From Ensifer adhaerens (GTDB taxonomy: Bacteria > Pseudomonadota > Alphaproteobacteria > Rhizobiales > Rhizobiaceae), in the NCBI RefSeq assembly GCF_013283195.1, contig NZ_JABEKT010000002.1:1178001-1242000 (forward strand): a stretch of DNA of 64,000 bases. The letters run 5' to 3'. Below, in pieces: positions 7,581-48,613 of this stretch. The translations under genes were made by a program, and so were the position numbers. The notes below the pieces were generated by a model. The model was not told where the DNA came from. It saw only the letters and a program-made list of their open reading frames with translations, and ran no database searches. Positions within the stretch are counted from its first letter, which is position 1, and each line of letters starts with the position of its first letter.

Positions 7581-7584
7581 ACTC

Positions 7585-8682
7585 ATGGCTCCTGTCACCC
7601 TCAGGAAACTTGTCAAACGCTATGGCGCGCTCGAAGTCGTTCACGGCATCGATCTCGAGGTGAAGGACCGCGAGTTCATCGCCCTTGTCGGCCCGTCCGG
7701 CTGCGGCAAGTCGACGACGCTGCGCATGATCGCCGGTCTCGAAGACGTCAGCGGCGGCGCGATCGAAATCGGCGGCCGCGCGGTCAACGACCTGCCGCCG
7801 CGCGCCCGCAACATCTCGATGGTGTTCCAGTCCTATGCGCTCTATCCGCATATGACGGTTGCCGAGAACATGGGCTTCTCGCTGAAGATAGCGGGCCGCT
7901 CGGCCGAGGACATCAAGGCGCGCGTCGAAGAGGCAGCTGCGATCCTCGATCTCGGCCATCTCCTGGAGCGCCGGCCGTCGCAGCTCTCCGGTGGCCAACG
8001 CCAGCGCGTGGCCATGGGCCGCGCGATCGTGCGCCAGCCCGACGTCTTCCTGTTCGACGAGCCGCTGTCGAACCTCGACGCCAAGCTGCGCACCCAGGTG
8101 CGCACCGAAATCAAGAAACTGCATGCCCGCATGCAGGCGACGATGATCTATGTGACGCATGATCAGGTTGAGGCGATGACGCTCTCCGACCGCATCGTCA
8201 TCATGCGCGACGGCCATATCGAGCAGGTCGGAACGCCGGAAGAAGTGTTTCAGAAGCCTTCGACGAAATTCGTTGCCGGCTTCATCGGCTCGCCGCCGAT
8301 GAACATGGACGAGGCCATCGTCGACAATGGCCAACTGGTGTTTGCAAGCGGCGTCCGGCTGCCAGTGCCGCCACGGTTTGCCGGTGCTCTTCGTGCCGGT
8401 CAGAAGGTGACGTTCGGCCTGCGCCCTGACGATATCTACCCGACTGGCCACGGTCTTCACGCCGGCGATGCCTCGGCCGTGCACGAGGTCGATCTGCCCG
8501 TGACCATCACCGAGCCGCTCGGCAACGAGACGCTGGTGTTCATTCAGTTCAATGGCCGCGACTGGGTTTCGCGCATGCTCAATCCGCGTCCCTTACGTTC
8601 CGGTGAAAGCGTGCGCATGAGCTTCGATCTCTCCCGCGCCCATCTCTTCGACATCGACACAGGAAAGGCTCTGGAAGGCTGA
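7585..8682 (+). CDS. Sugar ABC transporter ATP-binding protein (UgpC/MsmK type)
   Basis: 365 aa. Walker A GPSGCGKST at residues 36-44, signature LSGGQ at 134-138, Walker B VFLFDEP at 154-160 and the switch His at 192 (THDQ) are intact. After about residue 240 comes the MOBE/TOBE regulatory domain (FGLRPDDIY), as in CUT1 importers. It begins 4 bases after the second permease stop and ends 1 base before the next gene, so it is part of one long operon. It powers uptake of the sugar bound by the 4318-5637 protein. Confidence 0.95.
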   Translation: MAPVTLRKLVKRYGALEVVHGIDLEVKDREFIALVGPSGCGKSTTLRMIAGLEDVSGGAIEIGGRAVNDLPPRARNISMVFQSYALYPHMTVAENMGFSLKIAGRSAEDIKARVEEAAAILDLGHLLERRPSQLSGGQRQRVAMGRAIVRQPDVFLFDEPLSNLDAKLRTQVRTEIKKLHARMQATMIYVTHDQVEAMTLSDRIVIMRDGHIEQVGTPEEVFQKPSTKFVAGFIGSPPMNMDEAIVDNGQLVFASGVRLPVPPRFAGALRAGQKVTFGLRPDDIYPTGHGLHAGDASAVHEVDLPVTITEPLGNETLVFIQFNGRDWVSRMLNPRPLRSGESVRMSFDLSRAHLFDIDTGKALEG

Positions 8683-8683
8683 C

Positions 8684-9796
8684 ATGGCAAGGATCGAGAA
8701 AATTGAACTGCGCATGGTCGATCTGCAGCCGAAGGTGAAGCGGACCGACGCGATCCAGAGCTTTGTCAGCCAGGAGACGCCGATCGTCACGATCACCGAT
8801 TCCGATGGTGCGACGGGAACCGGCTACAGCTACACGATCGGCACCGGCGGATCCTCCGTCATGCGCTTGCTCTCCGACCACCTCGTTCCGATCCTGATCG
8901 GCGAGGATGCAGATTGCATCGAGGCCATCTGGCACAAGATGGAGTTTGCCACCCACGCCACCACCATCGGCCCGATCACGGCGCTGGCGCTTGCCGCTAT
9001 CGACGTCGCGCTCTGGGACCTGCGTGCCAAAAAGCAGAACCTGCCGCTCTGGAAGCTTGCTGGCGGCGCCAAGGACAATTGCCCGCTCTACACCACCGAG
9101 GGCGGCTGGCTGCATATCGAGAAGGAAGCGCTCGTCGAAGACGCGCTTCAGGCGAAGGCCAAGGGCTTTTCCGGCTCCAAGGTCAAGATCGGCAAGCCAC
9201 ACGGATCTGAAGACTATGATCGCCTGTCGGCGATGCGCAAGGCGCTCGGCGACGGCTTCGAGATCATGACCGACTGCAACCAGGGTTTTACCGTCGACGA
9301 GGCGATCCGCCGGGCAGCACGGCTGAAGGAACTGGATCTCGCCTGGATCGAGGAGCCGCTGCCGGCCGATGATCTCGATGGCCATATCCGCCTGACGCGC
9401 TCGACCCCAACGCCTATTGCTGTCGGCGAATCCATGTATTCGATCCGCCATTTCCGCGAATACATGCAGAAGGGCGCCTGCTCGATCGTTCAGGTCGACG
9501 TTGCCCGTATCGGCGGCATTACGCCCTGGCTGAAAGTCGCGCATGCGGCGGAATCTTTCGACATTCCGGTCTGTCCGCACTTCCTGATGGAACTGCATGT
9601 CAGCCTCGTCTGTGCCGTGCCGAACGGCAAGTACGTCGAATACATTCCGCAGCTCGACGAACTGACCGAGAAGGGTATGGAGATCCGCAACGGCCGCGCC
9701 ATCGCGCCGTCGGAAGCCGGGATCGGCATCGCCTGGGATTGGGATGCGGTGAAGGCGCGCTCGATCGACGAGTTCACCCGGGAATTTGCGAAGTAG
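8684..9796 (+). CDS. Mandelate racemase/muconate lactonizing enzyme family sugar-acid dehydratase
   Basis: 370 aa enolase-superfamily enzyme. Catalytic features are visible: KVK at 166-168, metal ligands D197 (MTDCN), E223 (WIEEPL) and E249 (VGES), and the Asp-His dyad D272 (QVDVAR) and H299 (VCPHF). The KxK plus D-H set places it in the mandelate racemase subgroup, whose members dehydrate sugar acids or epimerise. It is a second acid-sugar dehydratase-type enzyme in addition to the fuconate dehydratase at 13.3 kb, so it may handle a different epimer. Its exact substrate is not readable from sequence. Confidence 0.88.
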   Translation: MARIEKIELRMVDLQPKVKRTDAIQSFVSQETPIVTITDSDGATGTGYSYTIGTGGSSVMRLLSDHLVPILIGEDADCIEAIWHKMEFATHATTIGPITALALAAIDVALWDLRAKKQNLPLWKLAGGAKDNCPLYTTEGGWLHIEKEALVEDALQAKAKGFSGSKVKIGKPHGSEDYDRLSAMRKALGDGFEIMTDCNQGFTVDEAIRRAARLKELDLAWIEEPLPADDLDGHIRLTRSTPTPIAVGESMYSIRHFREYMQKGACSIVQVDVARIGGITPWLKVAHAAESFDIPVCPHFLMELHVSLVCAVPNGKYVEYIPQLDELTEKGMEIRNGRAIAPSEAGIGIAWDWDAVKARSIDEFTREFAK

Positions 9797-9807
9797 GGGA
9801 GATCGCC

Positions 9808-10137
9808 ATGGAACGGATGGGAATGGTGATCGGGCTTCAGCCTGAAAAGATCGCCGAGTACAAGGCACTGCATGCCGCCGTCTGGCCGGAGATCCTGGCG
9901 CTGATCTCCGAATGCAATGTCACGAATTACTCGATCTTCCTCAAGGAGCCGGAAAACCTGCTGTTCGGCTACTGGGAGTATGTCGGCGAGGATTTCGCAG
10001 CCGATATGGCGAAGATGGCCGCGCATCCGAAAAACCAGGAGTGGTGGTCGGTCTGCATGCCCTGCCAGAAGCCGCTCGAGACGCGCAAGGACGGTGAGTG
10101 GTGGGCGATGATGGACGAAGTTTTCCATCATGACTGA
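9808..10137 (+). CDS. L-rhamnose/L-fucose mutarotase-like protein (RhaM family)
   Basis: 109 aa, usual length for the L-rhamnose mutarotase family. Conserved pieces are MGMVIGLQPEKIAEYKALHA, the WPEIL segment, NYSIFL and a C-terminal WWSVCMPCQ. The family interconverts alpha and beta anomers of 6-deoxy sugars so that dehydrogenases get the right form. The ATG at 9808 has a GGGGAGA ribosome site and gives the expected N-terminus. Its last 8 bases overlap the next gene. Within this island it likely acts on L-fucose or another imported 6-deoxy-hexose. Confidence 0.87.
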   Translation: MERMGMVIGLQPEKIAEYKALHAAVWPEILALISECNVTNYSIFLKEPENLLFGYWEYVGEDFAADMAKMAAHPKNQEWWSVCMPCQKPLETRKDGEWWAMMDEVFHHD

Positions 10138-11209
10138 GCAATTCGATCCGAAAAGACTGCAACAATCCTGGCCGAAGCCTGAAAAGCCGCGTCCGATCGT
10201 CATTTTCGGCGCCGGCAGCATCGTCGGCGACGCCCATCTCCCCGCCTATCGCAAGGCCGGTTTTCCCGTCGCCGGCATCTTCGATCCGGATGCCGAAAAG
10301 GCGGAAAAGCTGGCAACCACCTGGGGCATTCCGGCATTTGCGACCGAGGTCGAAGCGCTGGCGATCCCCGGTGCAATCTTCGATCTGGCGACCCCGCCTG
10401 CAGCGCACGCGGCAATCCTGTCGAAGCTGCCGATCGGCGCTGGCGCCTTGATCCAGAAACCGATGGGCGGCGATCTCGCTGCCGCGACGGAGATCCTCAA
10501 CATCTGCCGAGACCGGCAGTTGAAGGCGGCAGTCAATTTCCAGTTGCGCTTCGCGCCGATGATGCTGGCGCTGCGCGATGCGATTGCGAAGGGGTATCTC
10601 GGAAAGGTCGTCGATTTCGATGCATGGCTGGCGCTCGCTACGCCGTGGGGTCTATGGCCGTTCCTGAAAGGCCTGCCGCGTATCGAGATCGCGATGCACT
10701 CGATCCATTATCTCGACCTGATCCGCGGGCTGCTCGGCAATCCCCTGGGCGTGCATGCCAAGACGATCGGTCACCCCAATCACGATGTGGCGCAGACCCG
10801 AACGGCCGCCATTCTCGACTACGGCGACAGCGTGCGCTGCGTGATTTCGGTCAATCATGATCATGATTTCGGGCGCAAGTTCCAGGCCTGCGAGTTCCGC
10901 ATTTCAGGCACCGAGGGAGCAGCCTATGTGAAGCTCGGCGTCAATCTCGATTATCCGCGCGGCGAGCCCGACGAACTCTGGATCCGCCCGGCCGGTGGCA
11001 GCGAATGGGTGGAAGTGCCGCTTCAGGGCGCCTGGTTCCCGGACGCTTTCGGCAATCGCATGGCCAACCTGCAGCGCTTCGTCAGCGGCGAGGATGCTGA
11101 GTTGATCGGCTCTGTCGACGACGCCTGGCAGACGATGGCGCTGGTCGAGGCGGCCTACCAATCGAGCGCGCGGCCCGCAACGCCAATCGCGCCACTTCCC
11201 GGACGGTGA
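10130..11209 (+). CDS. Gfo/Idh/MocA family oxidoreductase
   Basis: 359 aa. A Rossmann start near residue 23 ([18 protein letters not shown]) and the downstream IQKPMGGDL motif (Gfo/Idh/MocA EKP-like Lys-Pro) show an NAD(P)-dependent sugar dehydrogenase fold. The C-terminal domain carries [14 protein letters not shown]. It overlaps the mutarotase gene by 8 bases, so the two are coupled. Likely role: oxidation of the sugar at C1 (the missing fucose dehydrogenase step) or of another position; this is inference from neighbours. Confidence 0.85.
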
Positions 11210-37479: not shown

Positions 37480-37903
37480 GGTCTTCGTCCTCGTGCGCAA
37501 TGACCGCTATAGGCCACTTCGAACGAGGAACAAAGCTGCGCCCGCAAGGTCATTTCTTCTGGGCCGACGCATATCGACGAGATGTTGAGATGGTCCGCTT
37601 GGGATTTGTCGTCTCCGCTGATCTGCGTCTGGGGATCTCCTCTGACGAAGAACCGCGTTTGATCGACCGCTAGCGGAATGTGCTCATGTGACAATACAAA
37701 AAATGCATTAAGTACAATCCGATATCAAGTCCTTTTGAGATATTGGTTTCGAAAGCGCTTCGGCGCATCCCGAACGGATTTTTCCCACTCCGGCAGAATG
37801 ACGATCAATCATTTCTTTTGTCTACTATTTTAATAGACAATAGTCGGTGTCAGATCAGGGCTGAGCACCTGGCTTGAAACCGAGAGATGAAGGGACGGGC
37901 AGA
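37480..37903. other. 424-base gap between divergent kinase and binding-protein genes
   Basis: Contains promoters for both directions and the TTGTCTA inverted repeat at 37818-37840. No supported gene. The stretch 37690-37860 is notably AT-richer than its surroundings, as expected for a promoter region. Confidence 0.5.
37818..37840. promoter_or_regulatory. TTGTCTA inverted repeat upstream of binding protein
   Basis: TTGTCTA (37818-37824) and TAGACAA (37834-37840) flank an AT-rich 9-base spacer, 63 bases upstream of the binding-protein ATG. Candidate operator; regulator unknown. Confidence 0.4.
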
Positions 37904-38851
37904 ATGGGCATTCTCGATAATAGAAAACTTCTGGCAGCCGGCGCGATGGCCGCCATGATATTTGGTGCATCGGCGGCGTTGGCGGCCGACGCTTTCGATC
38001 TCAGCCCTGAGCAGGCAAACAGGTTGCGGGTGGAAAAGAACGACAAGCGCATCGCAGAGGTCCCTGCGGACTTCAAATTTGTCCAGGACGGCGCACTGAC
38101 AATCGGCATCAGCACCAGCGGCCATCTTCCGCTGCACGACTATGCATCCGACAGCAAGACGGTCATCGGTTATGACGTCGATCTGGCGCAAGCGATCGCC
38201 GACAGCCTCGGGCGCGATTTGCAGCTGGTTTCCGTCGCCTGGGCGGATTGGCCGCTTGGGTTGGTGTCCGGCAAGTTCGATGCAGTCATTTCCAACGTCA
38301 CGGTGACGGAGGAGCGCAAGGAGAAGTTCGACTTTTCCACCTATCGCAAGGATGAGTTGGGCTTCTACGTCAAGGCCGACAGCAGCATCCGGGCGATCAA
38401 GACGCCGAAGGACATCGCCGGTCTGAAGGTTATTACCGATGCCGGAACCAATCAGGAAAAGATCCTGCTCGAATGGGACAGGCAAAACCTTGCCGCCGGC
38501 CTGTCGGCGATCGAGGTGCAGTATTACGACGATGATGCCGTGAAGGATCTTGCCGTTCAGTCCGGGCGGGCGGACGTGGTGTTCAGTGTCAACGCGACGC
38601 AGGCCTATTCCGCCGCAATCAATGGCAAGACCAAGCTTGTGGGCACCGTCAGTGGCGGTTGGCCGATCTCGGCCGAAATTGCCGTTACGACCCGCAAGGG
38701 CAGCGGCCTGGCCGAACCGTTGACCGGTGTCATCAATGATCTGATCGCAAGCGGTGATTATCGCAAGATCCTGGAGACCTGGAAACTGGGTCCCGAAGCG
38801 ATCGAGAAGGCGCAGACCAACCCACCCGGCCTGCCGAAGAGCGGCTCGTGA
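37904..38851 (+). CDS. Polar amino-acid-type ABC substrate-binding protein
   Basis: 315 aa. Signal peptide (MGILDNRKLLAAGAMAAMIF, cleavage near ALA-AD). Family 3 solute-binding features: GALTIGISTSGHLPLHDY, VIGYDVDLAQAIADSLGRD, and VTVTEERKEKFDFSTYR. No permease or ATPase gene is adjacent; the next gene is a Cys/Met-metabolism PLP enzyme, which hints at a sulfur amino acid ligand. A textbook intrinsic terminator follows. The ATG at 37904 is chosen because a TTG further upstream adds nothing typical. Confidence 0.9.
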   Translation: MGILDNRKLLAAGAMAAMIFGASAALAADAFDLSPEQANRLRVEKNDKRIAEVPADFKFVQDGALTIGISTSGHLPLHDYASDSKTVIGYDVDLAQAIADSLGRDLQLVSVAWADWPLGLVSGKFDAVISNVTVTEERKEKFDFSTYRKDELGFYVKADSSIRAIKTPKDIAGLKVITDAGTNQEKILLEWDRQNLAAGLSAIEVQYYDDDAVKDLAVQSGRADVVFSVNATQAYSAAINGKTKLVGTVSGGWPISAEIAVTTRKGSGLAEPLTGVINDLIASGDYRKILETWKLGPEAIEKAQTNPPGLPKSGS

Positions 38852-38873
38852 AGCGGTGATCGATGCAATCCCG

Positions 38874-38901
38874 AGCCGGCGCGAGGCAGCGCCGGCTTTT
38901 T
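38874..38901 (+). terminator. Intrinsic terminator after binding protein
   Basis: Perfect 9-bp stem AGCCGGCGC (38874-38882) with GCGCCGGCT (38889-38897), loop GAGGCA, followed by five T. Textbook rho-independent terminator, 55 bases ahead of the next start. Confidence 0.88.
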
Positions 38902-38955
38902 GCATGCACGCCATCTCAGAACGCCGAGTCCCTCGGCATTGAAGTGCAGGATTTC

Positions 38956-40146
38956 ATGAACGACAGCGACGACATCTCAAAGAAGTTCGCAATCAATACC
39001 AAGCTGCAGCGGGCGGGATACGATCCGTTCGACTACCACGGATTCATCAATCCGCCGACGGTGCGTGCCTCAACGGTGCTCTTCCCGAACGCCAAGGCGA
39101 TGGAGAGCCACGACCAGAAATACACTTATGGCACACGCGGGACGCCGACGACGGATGCTCTTTGCGAGGCCATCAACGAGCTTGAAGGAGCCGCCGGTAC
39201 CTTGCTGGTGCCGTCGGGGCTTGCTGCCGTCACGCTCGCGTTCCTGGCGTTGCTGTCTCCGGGCGACCACGCGCTCATTGTCGATTCCGTCTACGGCAAC
39301 GTTCGCCATTTCTGCGACACGTTGCTTGCGCGGTTCGGCATCGAGGTCGAATACTACGATCCCGCCATTGGGGCCGCGATCGAGACCCTGTTCAAGCCGA
39401 ACACCAAGCTCGTTCACCTAGAGGCGCCTGGCTCCAACACATTCGAGATGCAGGACGTGCCCGCGATCACCACAGCCGCGCACCGCATCTCGGCCGTGGT
39501 GACGATGGACAATGCCTGGGCGACGCCGCTGTTCTTCAGGCCGCTCGACTTCGGCGTCGACGTCTCGATCCAGGCGGCAACCAAGTATCCGACGGGCAAT
39601 TCGGACATCTTGATGGGGACGGTATCCGCCAATGCGCAATATTGGCCGCGCCTCAGGCATATGAACGGGGCACTCGGACTATGTGGCGCACCGGATGACG
39701 CCTACCAGGCGCTGCGCGGATTGCGCACCATGGGCGTGCGTCTCGAACGGCACCAGAAGAGTGCGCTTGAAGTCGCGCAGTGGCTGGAAACACGCGGCGA
39801 TGTCGCCAGCGTCCTTTACCCCGCACTTGCGAGCTTTCCCGGCCACGACATCTGGAAGCGCGATTTCAAAGGCGCGAGCGGCGTCTTTTCCTTCGTGCTG
39901 AAAGTCACACGGACAGATGAGTTCAAGGCGAGAGCCCAGGCTTTCCTCGATGGCTTGTCACTGTTCGGGCTTGGCTATTCCTGGGGCGGGTTTGCGAGCC
40001 TCGCGCTTCACGTCGAACTCGCGGATCGGCGTATCCTGACCGCGCCTACGGAAGGGCCGGTGCTGCGGCTTCACATCGGCCTCGAAGACGTTGGGGACTT
40101 AAAGGCCGATCTTGAACGTGCTTTCGCGGCTGCCGCTGCAATCTGA
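38956..40146 (+). CDS. Cys/Met metabolism PLP-dependent enzyme (cystathionine beta-lyase type)
   Basis: 396 aa. PLP-fold type I enzyme of the MetC/MetB family: YGTRGTPTTDALCEAINELEG, VTMDNAWATPLFFRPLDFGVDVS, and the PLP lysine in QAATKYPTGNSDILMG. The C-terminal SLFGLGYSWGGFASL is conserved in cystathionine beta-lyases. It splits C-S bonds of cystathionine or cystine-like substrates. It follows a solute-binding gene after a terminator. ATG at 38956 is favoured; a reading from 38863 adds sequence overlapping the terminator. Confidence 0.92.
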   Translation: MNDSDDISKKFAINTKLQRAGYDPFDYHGFINPPTVRASTVLFPNAKAMESHDQKYTYGTRGTPTTDALCEAINELEGAAGTLLVPSGLAAVTLAFLALLSPGDHALIVDSVYGNVRHFCDTLLARFGIEVEYYDPAIGAAIETLFKPNTKLVHLEAPGSNTFEMQDVPAITTAAHRISAVVTMDNAWATPLFFRPLDFGVDVSIQAATKYPTGNSDILMGTVSANAQYWPRLRHMNGALGLCGAPDDAYQALRGLRTMGVRLERHQKSALEVAQWLETRGDVASVLYPALASFPGHDIWKRDFKGASGVFSFVLKVTRTDEFKARAQAFLDGLSLFGLGYSWGGFASLALHVELADRRILTAPTEGPVLRLHIGLEDVGDLKADLERAFAAAAAI

Positions 40147-40198: not shown

Positions 40199-40828
40199 TC
40201 AGGGCAGGGGGATGACGCCGGTGACATGGGGCACTTCATAGCCGCGCTTGACGGCGGCGCGAAGCGCAAGCCGCAGATACCAAGACCGGACGTTCGGGTA
40301 GTCCGAGAGATCGATCTTGTGGCGTTGAAAGCGCGAGACCCAGGGCCAGGTCGCGATATCGGCGATCGAATAGTCGTCGACCAGATACTCGCGGCCCTCA
40401 AGTCTGGCATCGAGCGTTTCGTATAGCCGTTGCGTGTCCCTCCGGAAGATCTCTTCGGCAAAGGGCGCCATGCCGGGGTTGTAGGTCAGGAAATTGTGGG
40501 CGTGGCCGAGCGTCGGGGCAAAACTGGCCGCCTGCCACATCGACCATTCGATCGTTTGGTGCCGTGCAGCGCCGCTCGGTGGAAGGAAGCGACCGGTCTT
40601 TTCTGCGAGATAGAAGAGGATGGCGCCGGACTCCGACAGAGTGATGCCAGCCGCATGGTCGATGATCGCCGGTATCTTGCCGCCCGGATTGATCGCCAGA
40701 TAATCTGGTGAGAATTGCGCGCCGCTCGTAATGTCGACAGCATGCGCGCGGTAGTCCAGGCCGAATTCTTCGAGGGCGATCGCGACCTTCAGCCCGTTCG
40801 GCGTGATCCAGGTGTAAAAATCGATCAT
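40199..40828 (-). CDS. Glutathione S-transferase
   Basis: 209 aa two-domain GST of the Ure2p/YfcG-like group: N-terminal thioredoxin fold MIDFYTWITPNGLKVAIALEE, then PAIIDHAAGITLSESGAILFYL with the conserved cis-Pro region and Glu-Ser-Gly; C-terminal helices include YLVDDYSIADIATWPW (N-capping box). It starts 7 bases after the ArsR regulator stop on the same strand, so the two form an operon. Likely roles are disulfide-bond oxidoreductase or glutathione conjugation in sulfur handling. Confidence 0.91.
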   Translation of the reverse strand: MIDFYTWITPNGLKVAIALEEFGLDYRAHAVDITSGAQFSPDYLAINPGGKIPAIIDHAAGITLSESGAILFYLAEKTGRFLPPSGAARHQTIEWSMWQAASFAPTLGHAHNFLTYNPGMAPFAEEIFRRDTQRLYETLDARLEGREYLVDDYSIADIATWPWVSRFQRHKIDLSDYPNVRSWYLRLALRAAVKRGYEVPHVTGVIPLP

Positions 40829-40835
40829 CTGGCGC

Positions 40836-41201
40836 TCAATCGAACATCAGTTCGTCGACCGGCAACTTCGCCATGCCGAAGCGGCCGGTAACATCATCCA
40901 GCCCGTCAAACATCTTGCGCAACGCAAGAACGATCGTTTCCACGCGGGGATCGGCGACCCTGTAGACAATAGCCTTGCCGTCGCGCCGCCCTTCGATGAC
41001 ACCTGCCTCGCGCAACTCCGCGAGCTGTTGCGACAGCGTCGGCTGGCGGATACCGAGCTCGGCTTCCAGCGCCGAGACCGAGGCTTGCGCCTCCATGAGA
41101 TAGCAAACGATTGCCAGGCGATTAGCGTTTGCCATCAATTTCAACAACTCGCTGGCCTCGCCAACGCTGCGACAGACCTTAGTCGGTGCCGGTTTCGTCA
41201 T
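40836..41201 (-). CDS. ArsR/SmtB family regulator, BigR/SqrR-like
   Basis: 121 aa winged-helix regulator. LLKLMANANRLAIVCYLMEAQ and IRQPTLSQQLAELREAGVIEGRRDGKAIVYRV closely follow the BigR/SqrR group of sulfide-responsive ArsR proteins. Cys33 sits where the first sensor Cys of BigR/SqrR lies, and Cys10 matches the extra N-terminal Cys of SqrR, but the second sensor Cys is missing (ALRKMFDG instead of a Cys-containing end). It is operonic with a GST and divergent from sulfonate genes, so a sulfur-related signal is plausible. Confidence 0.9.
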   Translation of the reverse strand: MTKPAPTKVCRSVGEASELLKLMANANRLAIVCYLMEAQASVSALEAELGIRQPTLSQQLAELREAGVIEGRRDGKAIVYRVADPRVETIVLALRKMFDGLDDVTGRFGMAKLPVDELMFD

Positions 41202-41219
41202 GATTGCCTCTCTCGCTTC

Positions 41220-41230
41220 ATAAAAAAGTA
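41220..41230. repeat. Direct repeat copy 1 (ATAAAAAAGTA)
   Basis: First of two identical 11-base copies exactly 150 bases apart in the arsR/sulfonate divergent promoter region; this one lies 19 bases upstream of the ArsR start. Confidence 0.55.
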
Positions 41231-41369
41231 AAGTGAGATTCGGTGGATTTCAATGCGCAGACCGGGATGAAACGTACCTGCGGCAGAACATTTTAATGTC
41301 GGTAGATTTTATAGATTAAATATCTCGCACTGCTGCCGGCAATGGCACGACCTTTCTCGCATTCAGTTT

Positions 41370-41380
41370 ATAAAAAAGTA
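41370..41380. repeat. Direct repeat copy 2 (ATAAAAAAGTA)
   Basis: Second copy, 37 bases upstream of the SsuA-like gene. One copy near each divergent start suggests paired binding sites for a shared regulator, possibly the ArsR protein (inference). Confidence 0.55.
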
Positions 41381-41416
41381 GATTGATCGTATTGGCACTG
41401 CAAGACTTCGATTGGA

Positions 41417-42268
41417 ATGGTCATGAGGATTGGCGTTCACCCCAACAACCTGCATTTGCGTTTGGCACGTCTGTGGCCAGGCGCGTTTGCTGAACTCGAT
41501 CCGGTATTCGTTCCTTACGGCGAGGGGCGGGATACCGCCGCGCTGATCGAACAAGGCGTCATCGATTTTGGCGGTACCGGATCGACGCCGCCACTTGAAG
41601 CTGATGCGCGTGGCCTTGGTGTCGAATACATCGCCGCCTCAGCTCCGCGTCCTTCCAATGGCGCCATCTTCGTTCGCGAGGCGAGCGACATTTCATCCGT
41701 CGCCGATCTTGTTGGTCGCCGGATTTCGTTGATCGACGGATCCTTTCACACCTATCTGCTCGCGCGCAGTCTGGAAGGAAAGGGCCTTGTTCTGTCCGAC
41801 GTCGAGCGGATCGAGAGTGGCACCCGGGATTCGCTGACGGAGTTGCTGGAGGGGCGTGTCGATGCCTGGGTGGCAATGTCACCGCGGCTGGAAAAGGCTA
41901 TCGAGCGATCCGATCTGCGGCTGCTTGTACGCTGCGGCGCAGCGATCCCGAACCGCTCCTTGTTCTGGACGCTGCGGCGAACCGGGCTTTCCGCCGGCGA
42001 ACGCGCTGCCATCGCCATGGAGCTCAACCGTATCGGCAGGGAGATTGCCGACGACCCGAAGACGGCAGCACGCCTGCTCGCTGCGGATGACCGCACGGCG
42101 ACGGATGCCGATGTTTGGGAGCGAGTCGTACGCTCGCGTGATTTTGCGGTCGGCCCGATCGATGGCGCCGTTCTCGCCGAACAGCAGGAGGAAGCCGACA
42201 CGCTCCACCGTCATGGGCATTTCCATCATTCCATAACGGTCGGCCAACCCTTGAAGACAGCATATTGA
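41417..42268 (+). CDS. SsuA/PhnD-type solute-binding-fold protein without signal peptide
   Basis: 283 aa. Sequence pieces such as MRIGVHPNNLHLRLARLWPG, DFGGTGSTPPLEADARGLGVEYIAA and RRISLIDGSFHTYLLARSLEGKG (split here into parts) follow sulfonate/nitrate-type binding proteins of the SsuA family. There is no signal sequence: the first strand begins at residue 3. Bases upstream are non-coding promoter, so a missed leader peptide is unlikely. It is 10 bases upstream of the SsuD-type monooxygenase. It may act in the cytoplasm as a sulfonate-sensing or substrate-delivery protein; a normal periplasmic receptor is ruled out unless the start is wrong. Confidence 0.83.
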   Translation: MVMRIGVHPNNLHLRLARLWPGAFAELDPVFVPYGEGRDTAALIEQGVIDFGGTGSTPPLEADARGLGVEYIAASAPRPSNGAIFVREASDISSVADLVGRRISLIDGSFHTYLLARSLEGKGLVLSDVERIESGTRDSLTELLEGRVDAWVAMSPRLEKAIERSDLRLLVRCGAAIPNRSLFWTLRRTGLSAGERAAIAMELNRIGREIADDPKTAARLLAADDRTATDADVWERVVRSRDFAVGPIDGAVLAEQQEEADTLHRHGHFHHSITVGQPLKTAY

Positions 42269-42278
42269 GGACCTTAAC

Positions 42279-43409
42279 GTGAACGTATTCTGGTATATGT
42301 GCGCGCCCGACGGCGCTTATCCTTGGCAGCCGGAGGGTTCCCGCAAGGTCGATTACGGCTACTACAAGCAACTGGCGCAAGCCTATGACCATCTTGGCTA
42401 TACCGGCGCCCTGTTTGCAACTGGCGCTCACGACGTCTGGGTACTGGCGAGCGCGCTGCTCTCCCACACCGAACGTCTGCGTTTCCTGGTCGCGATCCAT
42501 CCCGGGCTGGTCGCTCCAACGCTGCTTGCCAAGATGGCCGCCACCTTCCAGGAGTTTTCGCGCGATCGCCTGTTGATCAACGTGGTCTCCGGCGACGCCA
42601 AGATGCTCGGCGCCTACGGGATGATGCTGCCGCATGACGAGCGTTACGATATGGCGGATGAGTATCTGCAGCTCTGGCACAGACTGTTTGCCGGCGAAAG
42701 CGTCACCCACAAGGGCAAGTATTTTTCGACCGAAGGCGCCAAGCTCGCGCTACCCGTCAGCGAAACGATCGCCCCTCCGCCGCTGTGGTTCGGCGGCTCA
42801 TCCGACAAGGCGATCGATGTCGCGGCCAAGCATGTCGATACCTATCTGTCCTGGGGCGAGACGCCGGAGCAGATCCGGCACAAGATCGAGACGGTGAGGG
42901 TCCGTGCCGCCCAATACGGGCGTGAACTCCAGTATGGCATTCGCCTCTACGTCATCGTGCGTGACACCGATGAGCAAGCCTGGGAGGCGGCAGCCGATCT
43001 TTACGCGCGCATGGACGACACCGCGATTGCCTCCAACCAACGGTTTGTTGGCAAAAGCGATTCCGTCGGTCAGCAACGCATGACGGCAATGCATGGTGGC
43101 CTCAAACCGGATAATCTGCGCGATCTTGAAGTCGCCCCCAATCTCTGGGCGGGCATCGGGTTGGTCAGACCGGGACCGGGCACGGCGATCGTCGGCTCAC
43201 CGGACACTGTCCTTCGCACGCTCGAAGCCTATCAGCAGGCCGGCGTGGAGACGTTCATCCTGTCAGGCATGCCACTGCTCGAAGAGGCCTATCGCTTCGG
43301 CGAAAAGGTCCTGCCGCGCCTTGATGTTCAGCGTGATGTTGCACCGGCGCGCAACTTCACCTGGTCCACCCTGTTTGACCGCGATCTGTCCACCGTGAAG
43401 AGCGCTTGA
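42279..43409 (+). CDS. SsuD-type alkanesulfonate monooxygenase (LLM-class flavin-dependent)
   Basis: 376 aa, the usual size of SsuD. FMNH2-dependent luciferase-like fold with FWYMCAPDGAYPW, LRFLVAIHPGLVAPTLLAKM, VVSGDAKMLGAYG and WFGGSSDKAID. These enzymes release sulfite from alkanesulfonates using reduced flavin from a separate reductase; no reductase gene is adjacent. Its place between a SsuA-like gene and a TRAP transporter suggests a sulfonate use operon with unusual uptake. A dimethylsulfone or related LLM monooxygenase is possible. Confidence 0.9.
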   Translation: MNVFWYMCAPDGAYPWQPEGSRKVDYGYYKQLAQAYDHLGYTGALFATGAHDVWVLASALLSHTERLRFLVAIHPGLVAPTLLAKMAATFQEFSRDRLLINVVSGDAKMLGAYGMMLPHDERYDMADEYLQLWHRLFAGESVTHKGKYFSTEGAKLALPVSETIAPPPLWFGGSSDKAIDVAAKHVDTYLSWGETPEQIRHKIETVRVRAAQYGRELQYGIRLYVIVRDTDEQAWEAAADLYARMDDTAIASNQRFVGKSDSVGQQRMTAMHGGLKPDNLRDLEVAPNLWAGIGLVRPGPGTAIVGSPDTVLRTLEAYQQAGVETFILSGMPLLEEAYRFGEKVLPRLDVQRDVAPARNFTWSTLFDRDLSTVKSA

Positions 43410-43434
43410 GCCTCTCGTCAAAAGGTATGTTTGC

Positions 43435-45264
43435 GTGGCCATTACCGAAATCCACTCGACCGAGCCGGCCTCCATTGGGCGCCTGCTGGCGCAGCGCACA
43501 CTGAGGGGGATAGAAGCGAGCCTGGGCATCGCGGCCGCATCGGTGCTCGCCGTCTTGCTTGCCGTCGTTCTTTCGAGCGTCTGCATGCGCTACTTCTTCA
43601 ACACCGGCCTTGTTGGCGCTGAGGACCTGGGCATCTGGCTGCATGTCGCGCTGATTGCGATCGGCGCACCGTTGAGCCTCAATAGCGCGCTGGCCATGCG
43701 CCTGGACGTCTTTGCCAAGATGCTGCCGTCGCGGCTCTATCCGGCAACGCAAGTTGGAGCCGACGCCTTTACGGTCGTCACTGCGCTGGTGCTGGCATTC
43801 GGCGGCCATGAGATCATGAGCATGCTCGGCGGTGTCTCGCCCACGCTGGGCGTGCCGGAATGGTTTCGGTTCGGCTTTCTCGGTGGCGGCGGCTTGCTGA
43901 TCTTCCTCGTCTTGATCCTGCAGCGGGTCGGCGAAGGGAGAGGCGTACAGGGTCTGCTTTCCATTGTTATCGGCGCTGCGATTTATGCGGTGATTCCGCA
44001 TGTCGCGATCGAGGTCGACTGGCCTCCAAGCATCGTGCTCGGCCTCGTCGCGGCCTTTGGGCTGGTTCTGGCGGCACCCCTTCCGCATGCGTTTCTTGCG
44101 GCCGCCTATGTCGCCATCGCCTTTGGCAGCAGCCTGCCCGAACCCGCGATCGTTTCGTCGACGGTAACAGGGATCTCGAAGTTTCTGCTTCTGGCGATAC
44201 CGTTTTTCCTGCTGGCGGGCGGCTTGCTGACCGCATCGGGCGTCGCCAACCAGCTTGTCCGTTTTGCTGCCTCTATCGTCGGGCATCGGCGCGCGGGCCT
44301 CGCCCAGACCACGCTTCTGACAAGCGTGCTTTTCTCAGGCGCTTCGGGCTCTTCCGTTGCCAACGCTGCCTTCGGTGCCTCAACGTTCCAGCCGGAGCTC
44401 GTCAAACATGGCTATCCGCCGGCACAGGCCGCAGCCATTATCGCGTCCACGTCGGTGCTCGACAATGTCATCCCGCCATCGATCGCGTTCCTGATTCTGG
44501 CGACCGCAACCAACCTCTCGGTCGGCTCCCTGCTTGTCGGCGGCTTCTTCGCCGGTGGCCTGATGGCGATCTGCCTTGCGGTTGCGATCCACCTGACCGT
44601 GCGCGAACAGGTGCCGCAAGCCCGTGCGACCGGCACGCAACGCTGGCAATCGGCCAGACAGGCCATTCCCGCCTTCGGCCTGGGCATCATCGTCGTTCTC
44701 GGCATTCGCTTCGGCATCGTCACCACAACGGAAGCTGCGGCACTGGCTGCGCTCTACACGCTGTTTCTCGGACTTGCCGCGCGGCTCGGAATCCGTTCGT
44801 TCTATGCGGCGTTCCGTCAGGCAGCGACCGAAGCAGCCGCGATCGGCCTGCTGATCGGAACAGCCGGCCCCTTTGCCTTCCTCCTTGCGGTCGACGACGT
44901 CGCCGGCTTGGTGTCCGACCTGACGCTGCTGCTCGGCGGCAGCGCGCTCGCTGTGCTCCTGCTGTCGAACGTCATTCTTCTGGTCGTTGGCCTGGTGCTC
45001 GATATCGGTGCAGCGATCCTGCTTTTCGGGCCGATCCTCCTGCCGGCGGCGGTCGCAGCCGGCATCGATCCGATCCACTTTGGCGTCATCATCGTCGTCA
45101 ACCTGATGATCCATGGGCTGACGCCGCCGCTCGGCATGCTGATCTTCGTCGTCAGCGGCGTCACGGCAATACCGGCCCCCGCACTCTTCAAGGCGGTGGT
45201 TCCGTATCTCTGCGCTCTTCTTGTCTCCCTCGCGATCCTTTGCGCCTGGGCAATTGTTTTCTAA
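43435..45264 (+). CDS. TRAP transporter fused permease (DctQ-DctM fusion)
   Basis: 609 aa. Residues 1-about 170 form a DctQ-like four-helix unit (SSVCMRYFFNTGLVGAEDLGIW); the remainder is DctM with LLLAIPFFLLAGGLLTASG, FSGASGSSVANAAFG, VIPPSIAFLIL and GLTPPLGMLIF. Natural QM fusions occur in several lineages. The start is GTG with AAAGG nine bases upstream. It follows the SsuD-type gene by 25 bases and is followed by its DctP receptor, so the uptake system of this operon is TRAP rather than an ABC SsuBC pair. Confidence 0.92.
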   Translation: MAITEIHSTEPASIGRLLAQRTLRGIEASLGIAAASVLAVLLAVVLSSVCMRYFFNTGLVGAEDLGIWLHVALIAIGAPLSLNSALAMRLDVFAKMLPSRLYPATQVGADAFTVVTALVLAFGGHEIMSMLGGVSPTLGVPEWFRFGFLGGGGLLIFLVLILQRVGEGRGVQGLLSIVIGAAIYAVIPHVAIEVDWPPSIVLGLVAAFGLVLAAPLPHAFLAAAYVAIAFGSSLPEPAIVSSTVTGISKFLLLAIPFFLLAGGLLTASGVANQLVRFAASIVGHRRAGLAQTTLLTSVLFSGASGSSVANAAFGASTFQPELVKHGYPPAQAAAIIASTSVLDNVIPPSIAFLILATATNLSVGSLLVGGFFAGGLMAICLAVAIHLTVREQVPQARATGTQRWQSARQAIPAFGLGIIVVLGIRFGIVTTTEAAALAALYTLFLGLAARLGIRSFYAAFRQAATEAAAIGLLIGTAGPFAFLLAVDDVAGLVSDLTLLLGGSALAVLLLSNVILLVVGLVLDIGAAILLFGPILLPAAVAAGIDPIHFGVIIVVNLMIHGLTPPLGMLIFVVSGVTAIPAPALFKAVVPYLCALLVSLAILCAWAIVF

Positions 45265-45281
45265 CCAACAGGATCTTCGTC

Positions 45282-46283
45282 ATGAACGCTTTCAACAGAC
45301 GTGCCTTCCTAAAGACGACTGCCCTTGCGGGAGCCGCTCTGGCCACACCCGCGGTCCTGCGTCCGGCCCATGCCCGCACAACGGCGATCACGATCGCTTC
45401 GCTCTTCGGCGACGACAAGCCCGAGACGAAGATCTGGCTGAAGATCAGCGAGCTGGTCGAAGCCAAGCTGCCCGGACAGTTCCGCTTCAATATCGTCAAG
45501 AGCGGCGCGCTCGGCGGTGAAAAGGAAGTCGCCGAGGGTGTTCGCCTCGGTTCGGTTCAGGCAAGCCTGTCGACGGTGTCTTCGCTGTCCGGCTGGACGC
45601 CGGAACTGCAACTGCTCGACCTGCCGTTTCTCTTTCGCGATGCCGATCATGTCCGCAAGACGGTCGACGGCGCGATAGGCGGCGAGCTCAAGCAGAAATT
45701 GCTGTCTCAGAATTTCGTGGTCGCCGACTTCATCAACTACGGTGCCCGCCATCTGCTGACCAAGGAGCCGGTGACAAAGCCCGAGCAGCTTCAGGGCAAG
45801 CGAATCCGGGTCATTCAAAGCCCGCTTCACACCAAGCTCTGGAGCGCCTTCGGCACGACGCCGATCGGCATACCGATCACTGAGACCTACAACGCACTTG
45901 CAACTGGCGTCGCCGATGCCATGGACCTCACCAAGTCGGCCTATGCAGGCTTCAAGCTCTATGAGGTGGTGCCTTATCTGACCGAAACCGGCCATATCTG
46001 GGCATCCGGCGTCGTCTATTACTCCTCCGATTTCTGGAGCCGCCTCAACGACGAACAGAAGTCCGTCTTTGAACAGGCGTCGAAGGAGGGTGCGGCCTAT
46101 TTCAACCAGTTGATTGTCGAAGACGAAGCAAAATCGATCGAGCTTGCCATTCAGAACGGCGGAAAAGTCCTGAAGCCGGAGGCACTGGACGAGTGGCAGA
46201 AAGGCGCGCACGGCGTTTGGGACGAGTTTGCTCCAATCGTCGGAGGCATCGACAAGATCAAGTCCGTGCAGGCGCTTTCCTGA
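45282..46283 (+). CDS. TRAP substrate-binding protein with Tat-type signal (DctP family)
   Basis: 333 aa. N-terminus NRRAFLKTTALAGAALATPAV is a twin-arginine-like signal. DctP fold is shown by KSGALGGEKEVAEGVRLGSV, GKRIRVIQSPLHTKLW (conserved Arg) and GIPITETYNALATGVADAMD. It starts 17 bases after the fused permease. Given the operon, the ligand is likely a sulfonate or sulfonate-derived carboxylate (for example sulfoacetate- or sulfolactate-like), which is inference. A strong hairpin follows. Confidence 0.92.
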   Translation: MNAFNRRAFLKTTALAGAALATPAVLRPAHARTTAITIASLFGDDKPETKIWLKISELVEAKLPGQFRFNIVKSGALGGEKEVAEGVRLGSVQASLSTVSSLSGWTPELQLLDLPFLFRDADHVRKTVDGAIGGELKQKLLSQNFVVADFINYGARHLLTKEPVTKPEQLQGKRIRVIQSPLHTKLWSAFGTTPIGIPITETYNALATGVADAMDLTKSAYAGFKLYEVVPYLTETGHIWASGVVYYSSDFWSRLNDEQKSVFEQASKEGAAYFNQLIVEDEAKSIELAIQNGGKVLKPEALDEWQKGAHGVWDEFAPIVGGIDKIKSVQALS

Positions 46284-46333
46284 TCTGGTCGCATAGCCGG
46301 TCAGGGCGGAAGTCTGTGATGCTGCTCACAGCA

Positions 46334-46359
46334 ATAGCCTGCTCACATGAGCAGGCTAT
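46334..46359 (+). terminator. Strong hairpin after TRAP dctP gene
   Basis: Perfect 12-bp arms ATAGCCTGCTCA (46334-46345) and its complement (46348-46359) with only CA between, 50 bases after the stop. In DNA this is also a 26-bp palindrome and could bind a protein; as RNA it would form a hairpin with a tight turn. No T tract. Confidence 0.6.
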
Positions 46360-46499
46360 CCGGCCGCATTACCGATTTCCCGAGGGATGCGTTTGCCAGC
46401 GACGAAAAGCGCTGTCACAAACTTTCACCGAAGAAACCTCATTGCAGTTTAATTCTATGCATTGCATGGGTTTTTAAGGTGCTTTTCCGGAGTTCTGCC

Positions 46500-47306
46500 A
46501 TGTCTCTCGCCAGCCTCGCAATGTATGCCAGCCCGCCGCCAGTCGCGGAGGCGACGCGGCTTTTCTGGCGTGCGCTGAGCGAGCGCATCCTTGCCTACGG
46601 GCTTGAGGCACCGGAAGCGCTTGACGAGGAAATCCGCTACAACGAGGCGTGGATGCGTCCGGACCTGCTGTTCGGTCAGACCTGCGGATATCCCTATGTC
46701 CAGCATCTGCGCGGCAAGGTGCAACTGGTCGCATCGCCCGTCTATCGGCTCCCAGGCTGTGACGGTCCGCTCAAATGCAGTTTCATCGTCGTCAATGCTC
46801 AGTCGTCGGCAACGTCGTTCGAGGATCTGAGGGGCGGGCGCGCGGCGATCAACGAGCCCGGCAGCAATTCCGGATACAACCTGTTTCGCGCCTTTGTGGC
46901 GCCACACGCTGTCGATGGCCGGTTCTTCTCAAGCGTGCTGGAGACCGGCGGCCACGGAGCAAGCATGGACGCTGTGTCGCGCGGGGCGGCGGATGTGGCG
47001 GCGATCGACTGCGTGACTTTCGGCAACACCCTGCGCTTCGATCCCGATCGCGTGGCCGGTTTGCGCATCCTGGCGGAAACGGCCAAGGGGCCGGGCCTGC
47101 CTTTCATCACAGCCATGTCGACGCCGGCAGAGAACCTGGTGATCCTGCGCCAGGCCCTGTCGGAAACGATAGCCGACCCGGCGTTTGCCGATGTCTGCGA
47201 CACGCTCTCGCTGCAGGGCATCAGCCTGCTTGGCGATAACGACTACGAGGTGCTGGCGGATTTCGATCGCGATGCCGCACGCCAGGGCTACGCCGTGATC
47301 GGCTGA
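46500..47306 (+). CDS. PhnD-type solute-binding-fold protein without signal peptide
   Basis: 268 aa resembling PhnD/SsuA/transferrin-family binding proteins: LFGQTCGYPYVQHLRGKVQLVA, SFEDLRGGRAAINEPGSNSGY, GGHGASMDAVSRGAADVAAID (segments quoted separately). It starts MSLASLAMYASPPPVAEATRL with no signal peptide and GGAG eight bases before the ATG. It follows the TRAP operon after a hairpin, on the same strand. Like the SsuA-like protein at 41.4 kb it should be cytoplasmic. Possible function: ligand sensor or metabolic accessory; unknown. Confidence 0.82.
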   Translation: MSLASLAMYASPPPVAEATRLFWRALSERILAYGLEAPEALDEEIRYNEAWMRPDLLFGQTCGYPYVQHLRGKVQLVASPVYRLPGCDGPLKCSFIVVNAQSSATSFEDLRGGRAAINEPGSNSGYNLFRAFVAPHAVDGRFFSSVLETGGHGASMDAVSRGAADVAAIDCVTFGNTLRFDPDRVAGLRILAETAKGPGLPFITAMSTPAENLVILRQALSETIADPAFADVCDTLSLQGISLLGDNDYEVLADFDRDAARQGYAVIG

Positions 47307-47426
47307 GGCAGGGCGGAACGTTTCGCTGATGGCGGGAGGTGTTCCACCGGGCGCGCCGACAGACTTTGCGAAACCCGTTCCCAACAGGGGCACCCCGTTT
47401 AAGCCCTCGATTGTCGACAGGCCAGT

Positions 47427-47458
47427 ATTCTACAAAGTACGTAGAATGCATATTCTAC
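47427..47458. promoter_or_regulatory. Triple ATTCTAC half-site array
   Basis: ATTCTAC (47427-47433), its complement GTAGAAT (47441-47447) and ATTCTAC again (47452-47458) in 32 bases, giving two overlapping inverted repeats. It lies 133 bases upstream of the desaturase ATG in an otherwise empty region and looks like a cooperative operator. Confidence 0.5.
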
Positions 47459-47590
47459 AGTCACCGCGGTTTACGCAACCGGGTTTTCCATTTTCTCGTT
47501 TAACTGCAAAGCGATGCGGCGCGGCGTGCCGCGCCCGGATTTTATATTGGCCGCATCAATCCATTCGCTGACTCCCCCGGAATCCGTTTC

Positions 47591-48613
47591 ATGATCAAGC
47601 ACAGGCCGGACGACACGCTTCCCCCGCAACGCACGATTTCCCCAATCTCCCGTATCGAATGGCAGACGGTCGCGCTGGCGATCATCATCTATGGCGGATT
47701 TTTCGCTCTCACCTGGTTTTGGCAGTCGCTGCCGGTGATGGCCGTGATCGGCCTCGGCGGCTGGCTGATCGCCTGGCACGGATCGCTCCAGCACGAAGTC
47801 ATTCACGGGCATCCCACCCGCAACCGCTTCGTCAATGATGCGGTCGGCTGGCCGCCGCTGTCCCTCTGGCTCCCCTATGCGATCTATCGCGCAGGGCACT
47901 TGACCCATCACCGCGACGAGCACCTGACCGATCCGATCGAGGATCCGGAATCGTCCTATTTCACCCAGGCAGCCTGGGAGCGCATGGGAGGCGCCGGTCG
48001 GTTGCTCGCAGACTGGAACACTACGTTGCTCGGGCGGTTGACCCTCGGGCCCATCGTCATGATCGCCAGCTTCCTGGCACAGGAGGCGGCGCTCGTGCTC
48101 AACGGTGACCGCCGGCGGGCGGCGATCTGGATCCGGCATGCGATCGGTGTTGCCGCGATCCTCGTCTGGGTGATCGAAGTTTGCGGCATGCCGCTGTGGC
48201 TCTACGGCTTCGGTTTTGTCTATGTCGGTGCGGCTCTCACAAGGCTGCGTTCCTATGCCGAGCATCGCTATGCCGACCACCACGACGAGCGTACGGCGAT
48301 CGTCGAAAACAGTCCATTGTTCGGGCTCCTGTTTCTCTACAACAATCTCCATGTGCTGCATCACAAGCGGCCCGGAGTTCCCTGGTACAGGATACCACTG
48401 CTCTACCGCCGAGACAGGGATGCGCTCATCGCTGTCAATGGTGGTCTGGTTTACGACGGCTATCTCGACGTCGCCCGACGTTTCCTCTTCCGCCCGCACG
48501 ATGATCCGCGCCATCCTCTTCACCGGCAGCGAGGATCTGCGGCCGTTGATTTTCGGCCTGCGGTTGAAACCGACGCCGGGGCCACTGAAATCGCGCCATC
48601 GACGGTTGGGTGA
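47591..48613 (+). CDS. Membrane fatty-acid desaturase/beta-carotene hydroxylase-like protein
   Basis: 340 aa, about four membrane helices. The three His boxes of membrane di-iron desaturases are present: HEVIHGH, HLTHHRDEH and HVLHHKRP, with HRYADHH in between. The C-terminal 60 residues are polar and not conserved. It acts in the inner membrane on an acyl chain or other lipid. It is a single gene behind the ATTCTAC array; a weak hairpin (48667-48694) follows. Confidence 0.86.
   Translation: MIKHRPDDTLPPQRTISPISRIEWQTVALAIIIYGGFFALTWFWQSLPVMAVIGLGGWLIAWHGSLQHEVIHGHPTRNRFVNDAVGWPPLSLWLPYAIYRAGHLTHHRDEHLTDPIEDPESSYFTQAAWERMGGAGRLLADWNTTLLGRLTLGPIVMIASFLAQEAALVLNGDRRRAAIWIRHAIGVAAILVWVIEVCGMPLWLYGFGFVYVGAALTRLRSYAEHRYADHHDERTAIVENSPLFGLLFLYNNLHVLHHKRPGVPWYRIPLLYRRDRDALIAVNGGLVYDGYLDVARRFLFRPHDDPRHPLHRQRGSAAVDFRPAVETDAGATEIAPSTVG

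Follow-up and report, generated by a model that had tools for sequence, protein, structure and literature searches.

A 64,000-nucleotide stretch of the Ensifer adhaerens genome (contig NZ_JABEKT010000002.1, positions 1,178,001 to 1,242,000; hereafter 'the window', whose own numbering is used for the genes described below) carries a compact plus-strand operon of four genes, here called A through D, that spans nucleotides 41417-46283. Gene A (41417..42268) encodes a 283-amino-acid SsuA-fold protein (Pfam NMT1/Phosphonate-bd) that is predicted to lack an export leader, and gene B (42279..43409) encodes a 376-amino-acid SsuD-like monooxygenase (Pfam Bac_luciferase) that belongs by family to the group C enzymes dependent on reduced flavin mononucleotide (FMNH2). 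These are followed by C (43435..45264), which codes for a 609-amino-acid fused tripartite ATP-independent periplasmic (TRAP) membrane protein, DctQM (Pfam DctQ at residues 42-163 and DctM at residues 208-602), and by D (45282..46283), which codes for a 333-amino-acid TRAP substrate-binding protein (SBP), DctP, with the twin-arginine translocation (Tat)-type signal RRAFLK. Only 10, 25 and 17 bases separate A from B, B from C and C from D, respectively. The arsR and gst genes lie on the opposite strand and are divergent from the operon.

An earlier note on this DNA, prepared from the sequence alone, had proposed that TRAP genes take the place of the usual ATP-binding cassette (ABC) transporter. 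This assignment holds, as evident by the fact that DctQ (57.9), DctM (296.9) and DctP (210.7) all score above their Pfam cut-offs. The Tat stretch of DctP is over the NCBIfam cut-off (21.5 versus 16.7) and under that of Pfam (19 versus 22.7). Scans for promoters and for terminators with a run of T nucleotides gave hits at about the level of shuffled sequence (1 versus 1.6 and 7 versus 6.3, respectively). A literature search that covered mainly titles and the openings of abstracts, with most subscription journals outside its coverage, returned no account of this gene layout.

The most constant feature of the system is the pairing of A with B. Scanning with an alignment of six A orthologs yielded 121 stretches representing 76 loci, which together with the window and loci L009, L010 and L014 make a set of 80 A loci whose gene maps consist of codon-scored open reading frames (ORFs). 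B is adjacent to A in 78 of these 80 loci, with the order reversed (B-A) in L091. The transporter type is TRAP at 55 loci, ABC at 19 and other at six, and DctQM, DctP and the glutathione S-transferase (GST) are encoded at 55, 53 and 44 of the 80 loci, respectively. At the 19 ABC loci, B is followed by a permease with 70% or greater identity to its L068 counterpart and by a leader-bearing SsuA-family protein; for L068, which was run against Pfam and NCBIfam as an example, the next gene encodes an ABC ATPase and the SBP scores over the SsuA cut-off (181.3). The six loci with other uptake genes (L073, L077, L087, L090, L091 and L092) include L087, whose neighbors are a TonB receptor and a major facilitator superfamily transporter, L073, with NIPSNAP, a leader-bearing SBP and a TonB-type receptor judged by its start, and L091, where a TonB receptor gene precedes B-A-SBP. 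TRAP is not a defining feature of the system, because ABC or other transporters occur in sister operons, nearly all of which carry the A-B pair. Rather, the pump is exchanged while the pair stays, and therefore it is the A-B pair that marks the pathway.

The reverse search gives the same picture. When B alone was used to search 297 genomes of the family, 13 genomes were recovered, its own included, and A lies directly upstream of B in all 13; within the stretches examined, ArsR is present in 12 and DctQM in eight. A class-wide search with B at E 1e-120 recovered only its own genome (1 of 385). Thus, A tracks B, whichever transporter adjoins. Finding the same gene order in other rhizobia had been set beforehand as a test, and in addition to the conserved A-B pair, the complete ArsR/A/B/C/D order is also present in Thioclava, a member of a different taxonomic order. 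Because of this recurrence, the arrangement is beyond chance.

The earlier note had also stated that A starts directly at its fold without a leader peptide, and had named a conserved upstream in-frame start as the finding that would speak against this. In the window, the 10 open codons upstream of A contain no start codon, such that addition of a leader would need a frameshift, and six orthologs carry stops 4-32 codons upstream. Similarity among the A proteins starts at residue 1, 2 or 3 in all 80 loci. Every start located 12-60 codons upstream was then considered, using the maximum mean hydropathy over 13 residues as a measure of leader character. No start codon in an open frame occurs in this interval at 67 of the 80 loci, and among the 13 loci that do have one, 10 show a mean hydropathy of no more than 0.92 in every 13-residue stretch. 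By comparison, 21 loci encode a second SsuA-fold protein with 30-50 residues before the fold and a leader-type hydrophobic core (maxima of 1.48-2.52), and ordinary SsuA relatives in a phylum sample have leader-like starts. Judging from upstream starts and hydropathy, A is predicted to be leaderless as a clade, and an intracellular role is therefore its natural reading. In the two annotated records examined, A bears the name 'ABC transporter substrate-binding protein', a label that would probably put it in the wrong compartment and with the wrong transporter. The 21 loci that carry leader-bearing and leaderless SsuA-fold proteins together constitute a natural experiment on the role of the leaderless one.

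A phylogenetic tree of 31 A proteins, 21 SBPs encoded in the same operons and three other SsuA relatives sets A apart from all others with support of 100/100, although long branches are flagged in this tree, among them those of the A proteins from L087, L088, L090, L091 and L092. Among 398 genomes of the phylum sample, three A matches score 438-442 bits and the next best scores 177. An AlphaFold2 model of A built from the 31 sequences is confident from residue 1 (mean predicted local distance difference test of 91.5), and the structures closest to it are those of SsuA proteins (3ksx, Z 29.5, root-mean-square deviation 2.8, 278 residues aligned). On the basis of this model, A has an SsuA fold. 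E. coli SsuA (2x26) is found with the A profile at E 1e-34, and A falls below the cut-off of the SsuA family model TIGR01728 (89.0 versus 163.5).

The predicted pocket of A is unlike those of its leader-bearing relatives. Residues H8, N11, R38, S75, R78, N179, R180, S181 and W184 are among those invariant in all 31 A proteins, and the operon SBPs differ at these positions. The polar set H8, N11, R38 and R78 (31 of 31) is also present in 13 A proteins found through B. The sulfonate ligands of Xanthomonas SsuA are Gln36, Gly68, Gly86 and Ser141 (PMC3839906). When A is aligned with SsuA, the two glycines of the SsuA oxyanion cradle are retained (Gly68 as G37 and Gly86 as G55; PMC3839906), and Gln36, Ser141 and Trp185 are replaced by His8, Phe110 and Met154. 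Because the glycines are kept while these other residues are exchanged, A appears to hold part of the oxyanion cradle in a rebuilt pocket. Relative to the leader-bearing operon SBPs, A has His8 rather than Leu, Arg38 rather than Ala and Met154 rather than Trp.

The nearest solved relative of B is SsuD (1m41/1nqk, E 5.4e-107). In the structure of MsuD, W195, R225 and R296 contact the sulfonate, along with a loop of consensus RGGA (PMC8234197). We matched positions in B to these residues by motif via the canonical SsuD encoded elsewhere in the same genome (TIGR03565 score of 622.7), and found that the equivalents of W195, R225 and R296 are retained in 78 of 78 B proteins. These predicted contacts favor a sulfonate-like substrate, perhaps one outside the ordinary range.

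Three features that the earlier note did not include, namely arsR, gst and operator-like sites, lie directly beside the operon. The arsR gene (40836..41201, minus strand) encodes an ArsR-family repressor (Pfam HTH_5) that is BigR/SqrR-like and carries cysteines C10 and C33, and gst (40199..40828, minus strand), located downstream of arsR, encodes a GST-fold protein (Pfam GST_N/GST_C). The repressor gene is divergent from A in 73 of the 80 loci, and the sequence of L051 ends 75 bases upstream. ArsR scores over the broad ArsR/SmtB model NF033788 (82.1 versus 55), and its nearest solved relatives are BigR (3pqj) and SqrR (6o8k). The two cysteines of BigR/SqrR proteins sit in helices alpha-2 and alpha-5, and the first of these is present in ArsR as C33, a likeness to SqrR, BigR and SoxR. 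Unlike those proteins, ArsR carries a cysteine 23 residues before C33 (C-X22-C), which is found in 72 of 73 ArsR proteins (the exception is L092), and the alpha-5 position has no cysteine in any of the 72 ArsR sequences having this pair; in those from L060 and L066, a cysteine follows six residues beyond that position. In characterized BigR/SqrR-type repressors, the two shared cysteines become joined by a sulfur bridge (PMC12423496).

Two copies of a putative operator are located between the divergent genes. The arsR-proximal copy (41214..41235) includes a 16-bp core (41220-41235) with 0 mismatches to ATAAAAAAGTARANTG, and the A-proximal copy, for which the family consensus is CAATCTA-N8-TAGATTG, occupies 41364..41385. 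The palindrome is clearest in L058, where it reads CAATCTATAAAAAAGTAGATTG. The window thus has two 16-bp core sites, compared with a mean of 0.00 in 100 shuffles. The A-proximal 22-bp site has no other place within 3 mismatches in its own 7.07-Mb genome, and the shorter core, at 2 mismatches, has a third genomic place, with a reversed control pattern giving 2. When sites were counted across loci as 16-base matches with at least 13 positions identical to the consensus from the window, the 44 loci that combine TRAP and GST genes all carry at least one site and 43 carry two, with the two best sites 139-151 bp apart; shuffled sequences carry one site in 5 of 1460 cases and two in none. Because the window supplied the consensus, part of this site signal reflects common descent. 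The presence of two copies per promoter is separate evidence.

Alongside the features computed here, which are the leaderlessness of A, the transporter-independent A-B linkage, the single A clade, the sulfonate-contact residues of B, the cysteine pair and the site pair, we propose an explanation that we consider probable, albeit with considerable room for error: the locus would be a desulfonation module with TRAP uptake, cleavage by B, a cytoplasmic A protein as the partner of B and thiol-switch control by ArsR. The TRAP transporter (C-D) would import a sulfonate-type compound for sulfur scavenging, and B, as a group C flavin monooxygenase, would cleave the carbon-sulfur bond to yield sulfite. 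A would stay in the cytoplasm and, jointly with B, act on the compound after its import or on an intermediate. ArsR may serve as a thiol-switch repressor of both the gst-arsR unit and the operon, acting via the two palindromes approximately 150 bp apart. For A itself, we slightly favor a role as an enzyme with an SBP fold, or as a partner that handles ligand for B with tight specificity, over one as an uptake receptor. The A-B pair offers a means of locating as yet unannotated pathways of organosulfur use in rhizobia, agrobacteria and acetic acid bacteria.

Several known systems share parts of this arrangement. As in the SsuEADCB systems of E. coli and Xanthomonas, the locus combines a protein of SsuA fold with an enzyme whose nearest solved relative is SsuD. 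Unlike those systems, the A protein in the window has neither a leader nor an ABC partner, uptake relies on TRAP proteins, and the operon holds no ssuE. In addition, the equivalents of SsuD residues Cys54, His228 and Tyr331, matched by motif, are each lost in 78 of 78 B proteins. TRAP uptake of sulfonates is already represented by TauKLM, IseKLM and HpsKLM, and the isethionate-binding DctP 8t9t is among the solved relatives of D (E 1.4e-22). However, we know of no case in which these transporters occur together with both a leaderless protein of SsuA fold and an SsuD-like enzyme.

A number of observations weigh against the proposed desulfonation module or against parts of it. The locus counts are not independent, since many loci belong to closely related bacteria and the A-found and B-found sets overlap in part. 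Adjacent B was not found by the test used in L090 and L092, with L090 carrying a relative of B, 40% identical, about 5 kb upstream. With respect to the leader, L087 is ambiguous, because a 21-residue upstream stretch there has a strongly hydrophobic core (2.17), and the hydropathy values of L074 (1.49) and L075 (1.48) are at the low end of those of true leaders; a cleavage motif is not obvious by eye in any of the three. Two stretches of A, IPNRSxFW and GSFHTY, served as search patterns, and so their conservation is partly built in; the 13 A proteins recovered with B as the query have the same IPNRSxFW residues. No flavin reductase is encoded within the operon of the window. ArsR is below the cut-off of the BigR model NF040642 (89 versus 155), and the operator-like sites are rare beyond the TRAP+GST loci, occurring in two of six TRAP loci without GST and in one of 23 others. 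Finally, B is below the cut-off of the SsuD equivalog model TIGR03565 (420.6 versus 518.2), its loop reads RPGP rather than RGGA in 78 of 78 proteins, and the second-shell histidines are replaced by Ala and Tyr in 78 of 78. For these reasons, B may act on something other than an ordinary sulfonate, and the description of B as 'SsuD-type' in the earlier note is apt for its sulfonate-contact residues but not for its family placement, as B constitutes a distinct SsuD-like subfamily.

A bolder form of the proposal would make A the representative of a new enzyme class, cytosolic and of SBP fold, on which SsuD-like desulfonation depends as its obligate second component; A would process a ligand or intermediate needed or made by B, all under an ArsR with a new N-terminal/alpha-2 cysteine switch. 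Taken as a whole, this joint claim is tentative, and we would not be surprised to see it fail in one part or another. SBP-fold enzymes do exist near A in structure, including DszB (2de2, Z 16.9 over 268 residues), Thi5 (4esx, Z 19.8) and MqnD (2czl, Z 20.2), and these serve as a precedent for A, although A is far closer to SsuA. DszB acts after the flavin monooxygenase DszA, and its catalytic residue is Cys27. Judging by its place after the first strand, His8 of A would sit about where DszB has its nucleophile. From the standpoint of sequence, catalysis by A may be considered an equal alternative to the sensing or carrying of the sulfonate that was originally suggested.

The strongest rival is that A purely binds in the cytoplasm as a buffer, carrier or sensor, holding the sulfonate for B or reporting to a regulator without performing chemistry. 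Such a role would suit a protein whose top structural match is SsuA 3ksx (Z 29.5 over 278 residues) and which retains two cradle glycines, Gly37 and Gly55. A hint that intracellular SsuA-fold sensors exist comes from L133, where a 413-codon open frame on the minus strand carries an SsuA-like stretch in frame after the apparent end of a sigma-54-type activator with a helix-turn-helix, as judged by eye. Neither a stop nor a clear leader precedes the SsuA-like stretch, and if real, this would be an SsuA domain fused to a regulator. However, the pocket of A is unlike those of the leader-bearing SBPs of the same operons, and a putative sensor is already there, since the operon has a dedicated ArsR whose cysteine pair is distinct. 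We therefore view binding without chemistry as possible but somewhat doubtful.

A second rival holds that the substrate is a glutathione-linked or sulfinate compound, marked by GST, gamma-glutamyltransferase and NIPSNAP genes, and that A is a hydrolase or desulfinase of the DszB type. GST is encoded in 44 of the 80 loci, a gamma-glutamyltransferase gene is located downstream in L010 and L014, and DszB is a structural neighbor of A (2de2). In Acetobacter garciniae (L092), a DszB-like gene (6317-7802; 2de2 at E 1e-15) is parted from A by arsR only. Set against these points, the GST neighbor is present in only part of the clade, and DszB is not found by the A profile among solved chains at E 0.01. 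The sole cysteine of A in the window, C173, is away from the first strand. Membership of A in the DszB family was considered and rejected: the A profile misses DszB at E 0.01, an hhalign comparison with the DszB-like ORF of L092 covers query columns 55-175 only, and the structural match is well below that to SsuA, leaving DszB as a precedent only. For these reasons we judge the second rival to be unlikely.

It also could be argued that A is an ordinary ABC binding protein, now without its leader, that became redundant or began to decay once TRAP took over, given that the transporter in the window is TRAP with its own receptor, D. We consider this to be very improbable, because A is constrained (61% mean column identity among 31 sequences), forms one clade, and in 19 loci is encoded together with an ABC permease as well as an SBP that has a leader. 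Least credible of all is the idea that E and A, both leaderless SBP-fold proteins, form an intracellular sensor pair flanking the operon, since E is beside A in just three of the 80 loci, namely that of the window and those of two near relatives, adjoins unrelated genes elsewhere and is parted from D by a hairpin. As a conserved layout, this pair is refuted.

The position of E merits separate comment. The five ORFs do occur in the order given in the earlier note, but E (46500-47306), a PhnD-like protein (Pfam Phosphonate-bd), is not an operon member. Within the stretches examined, E adjoins A only in the window, L017 and L018. Elsewhere its neighbors include agmatinase and a polyamine transporter in one annotated region (two further regions lacked annotation), and a plasmid DNA search returned the E stretch alone, at 82% identity or less, in Rhizobium, Sinorhizobium and other records. 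The hairpin between D and E (46334..46359, plus strand) has an 11-bp stem, represents a possible operon end, and lies in a 97-nucleotide region with a folding z of -3.85; no run of T nucleotides follows the stem. E scores below the PhnD cut-offs (41.5 versus 261.1 for TIGR03431 and 50.7 versus 112.05 for TIGR01098), and its nearest solved relatives are AioX and ArrX; the PhnD/PtxB/AioX binding proteins are the known group closest to it. A longer ORF for E that starts at 46347 is open in the window only; eight homologs have just 0-16 open codons upstream, and four annotated homologs start at the equivalent of 46500. Therefore, E is leaderless, and the statement that both SsuA/PhnD-fold proteins lack leaders was correct. 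The picture of two such proteins flanking the operon was not, because E belongs elsewhere and only one leaderless protein remains in the operon. Likewise, the intracellular role suggested for both proteins fits A, which is leaderless across its clade, and does not extend to E as a partner of the operon.

Several additional observations concern E. Its homologs in L113 (3051-5872) and L114 (3050-5879) face genes for a FAD-binding protein and a ferredoxin-type protein and adjoin an oligopeptide ABC system, with an SfnB-type oxidoreductase nearby in L113. In the window, a fatty acid desaturase gene follows E (46500-48613), and in Pararhizobium A13 (L115, 2986-4804) a desaturase gene precedes the E homolog, such that a small separate unit is possible.

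Other observations concern the operon and its relatives. In Rhizobium sp. WYJ-E13 (L008, 7559-11098), arsR and A are absent along with the front portions of gst and B, and C and D are intact. The plasmid DNA search also returned C-D without A-B in several records, at the DNA level only. A NIPSNAP gene follows B in L009 (9133-9447, from annotation) and L073 (10015-10329, from Pfam), and a 104-amino-acid ORF, known by its size only, occupies this place in L059, L060, L066, L088 and L089. A contig titled Bacillus subtilis SK6B4 (L052) holds a Pseudochrobactrum-like copy of the operon and probably derives from a contaminated or mislabeled assembly. Two flavin reductase genes are located just downstream of the operon copy in L014. 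The canonical SsuD of the E. adhaerens genome is encoded in L110 (contig positions 1160001-1178000, at 6042-10857), together with a flavin reductase gene in divergent orientation and an ABC system of the taurine type; this group of genes is to the left of the window, at a distance of about 7 kb from it and 49 kb from the operon. Finally, genes for a family 3 binding protein and a cystathionine beta-lyase (37874-40146) are positioned just upstream of gst-arsR in the window and are retained in the three nearest relatives (L017-L019), which hints at a wider sulfur island.

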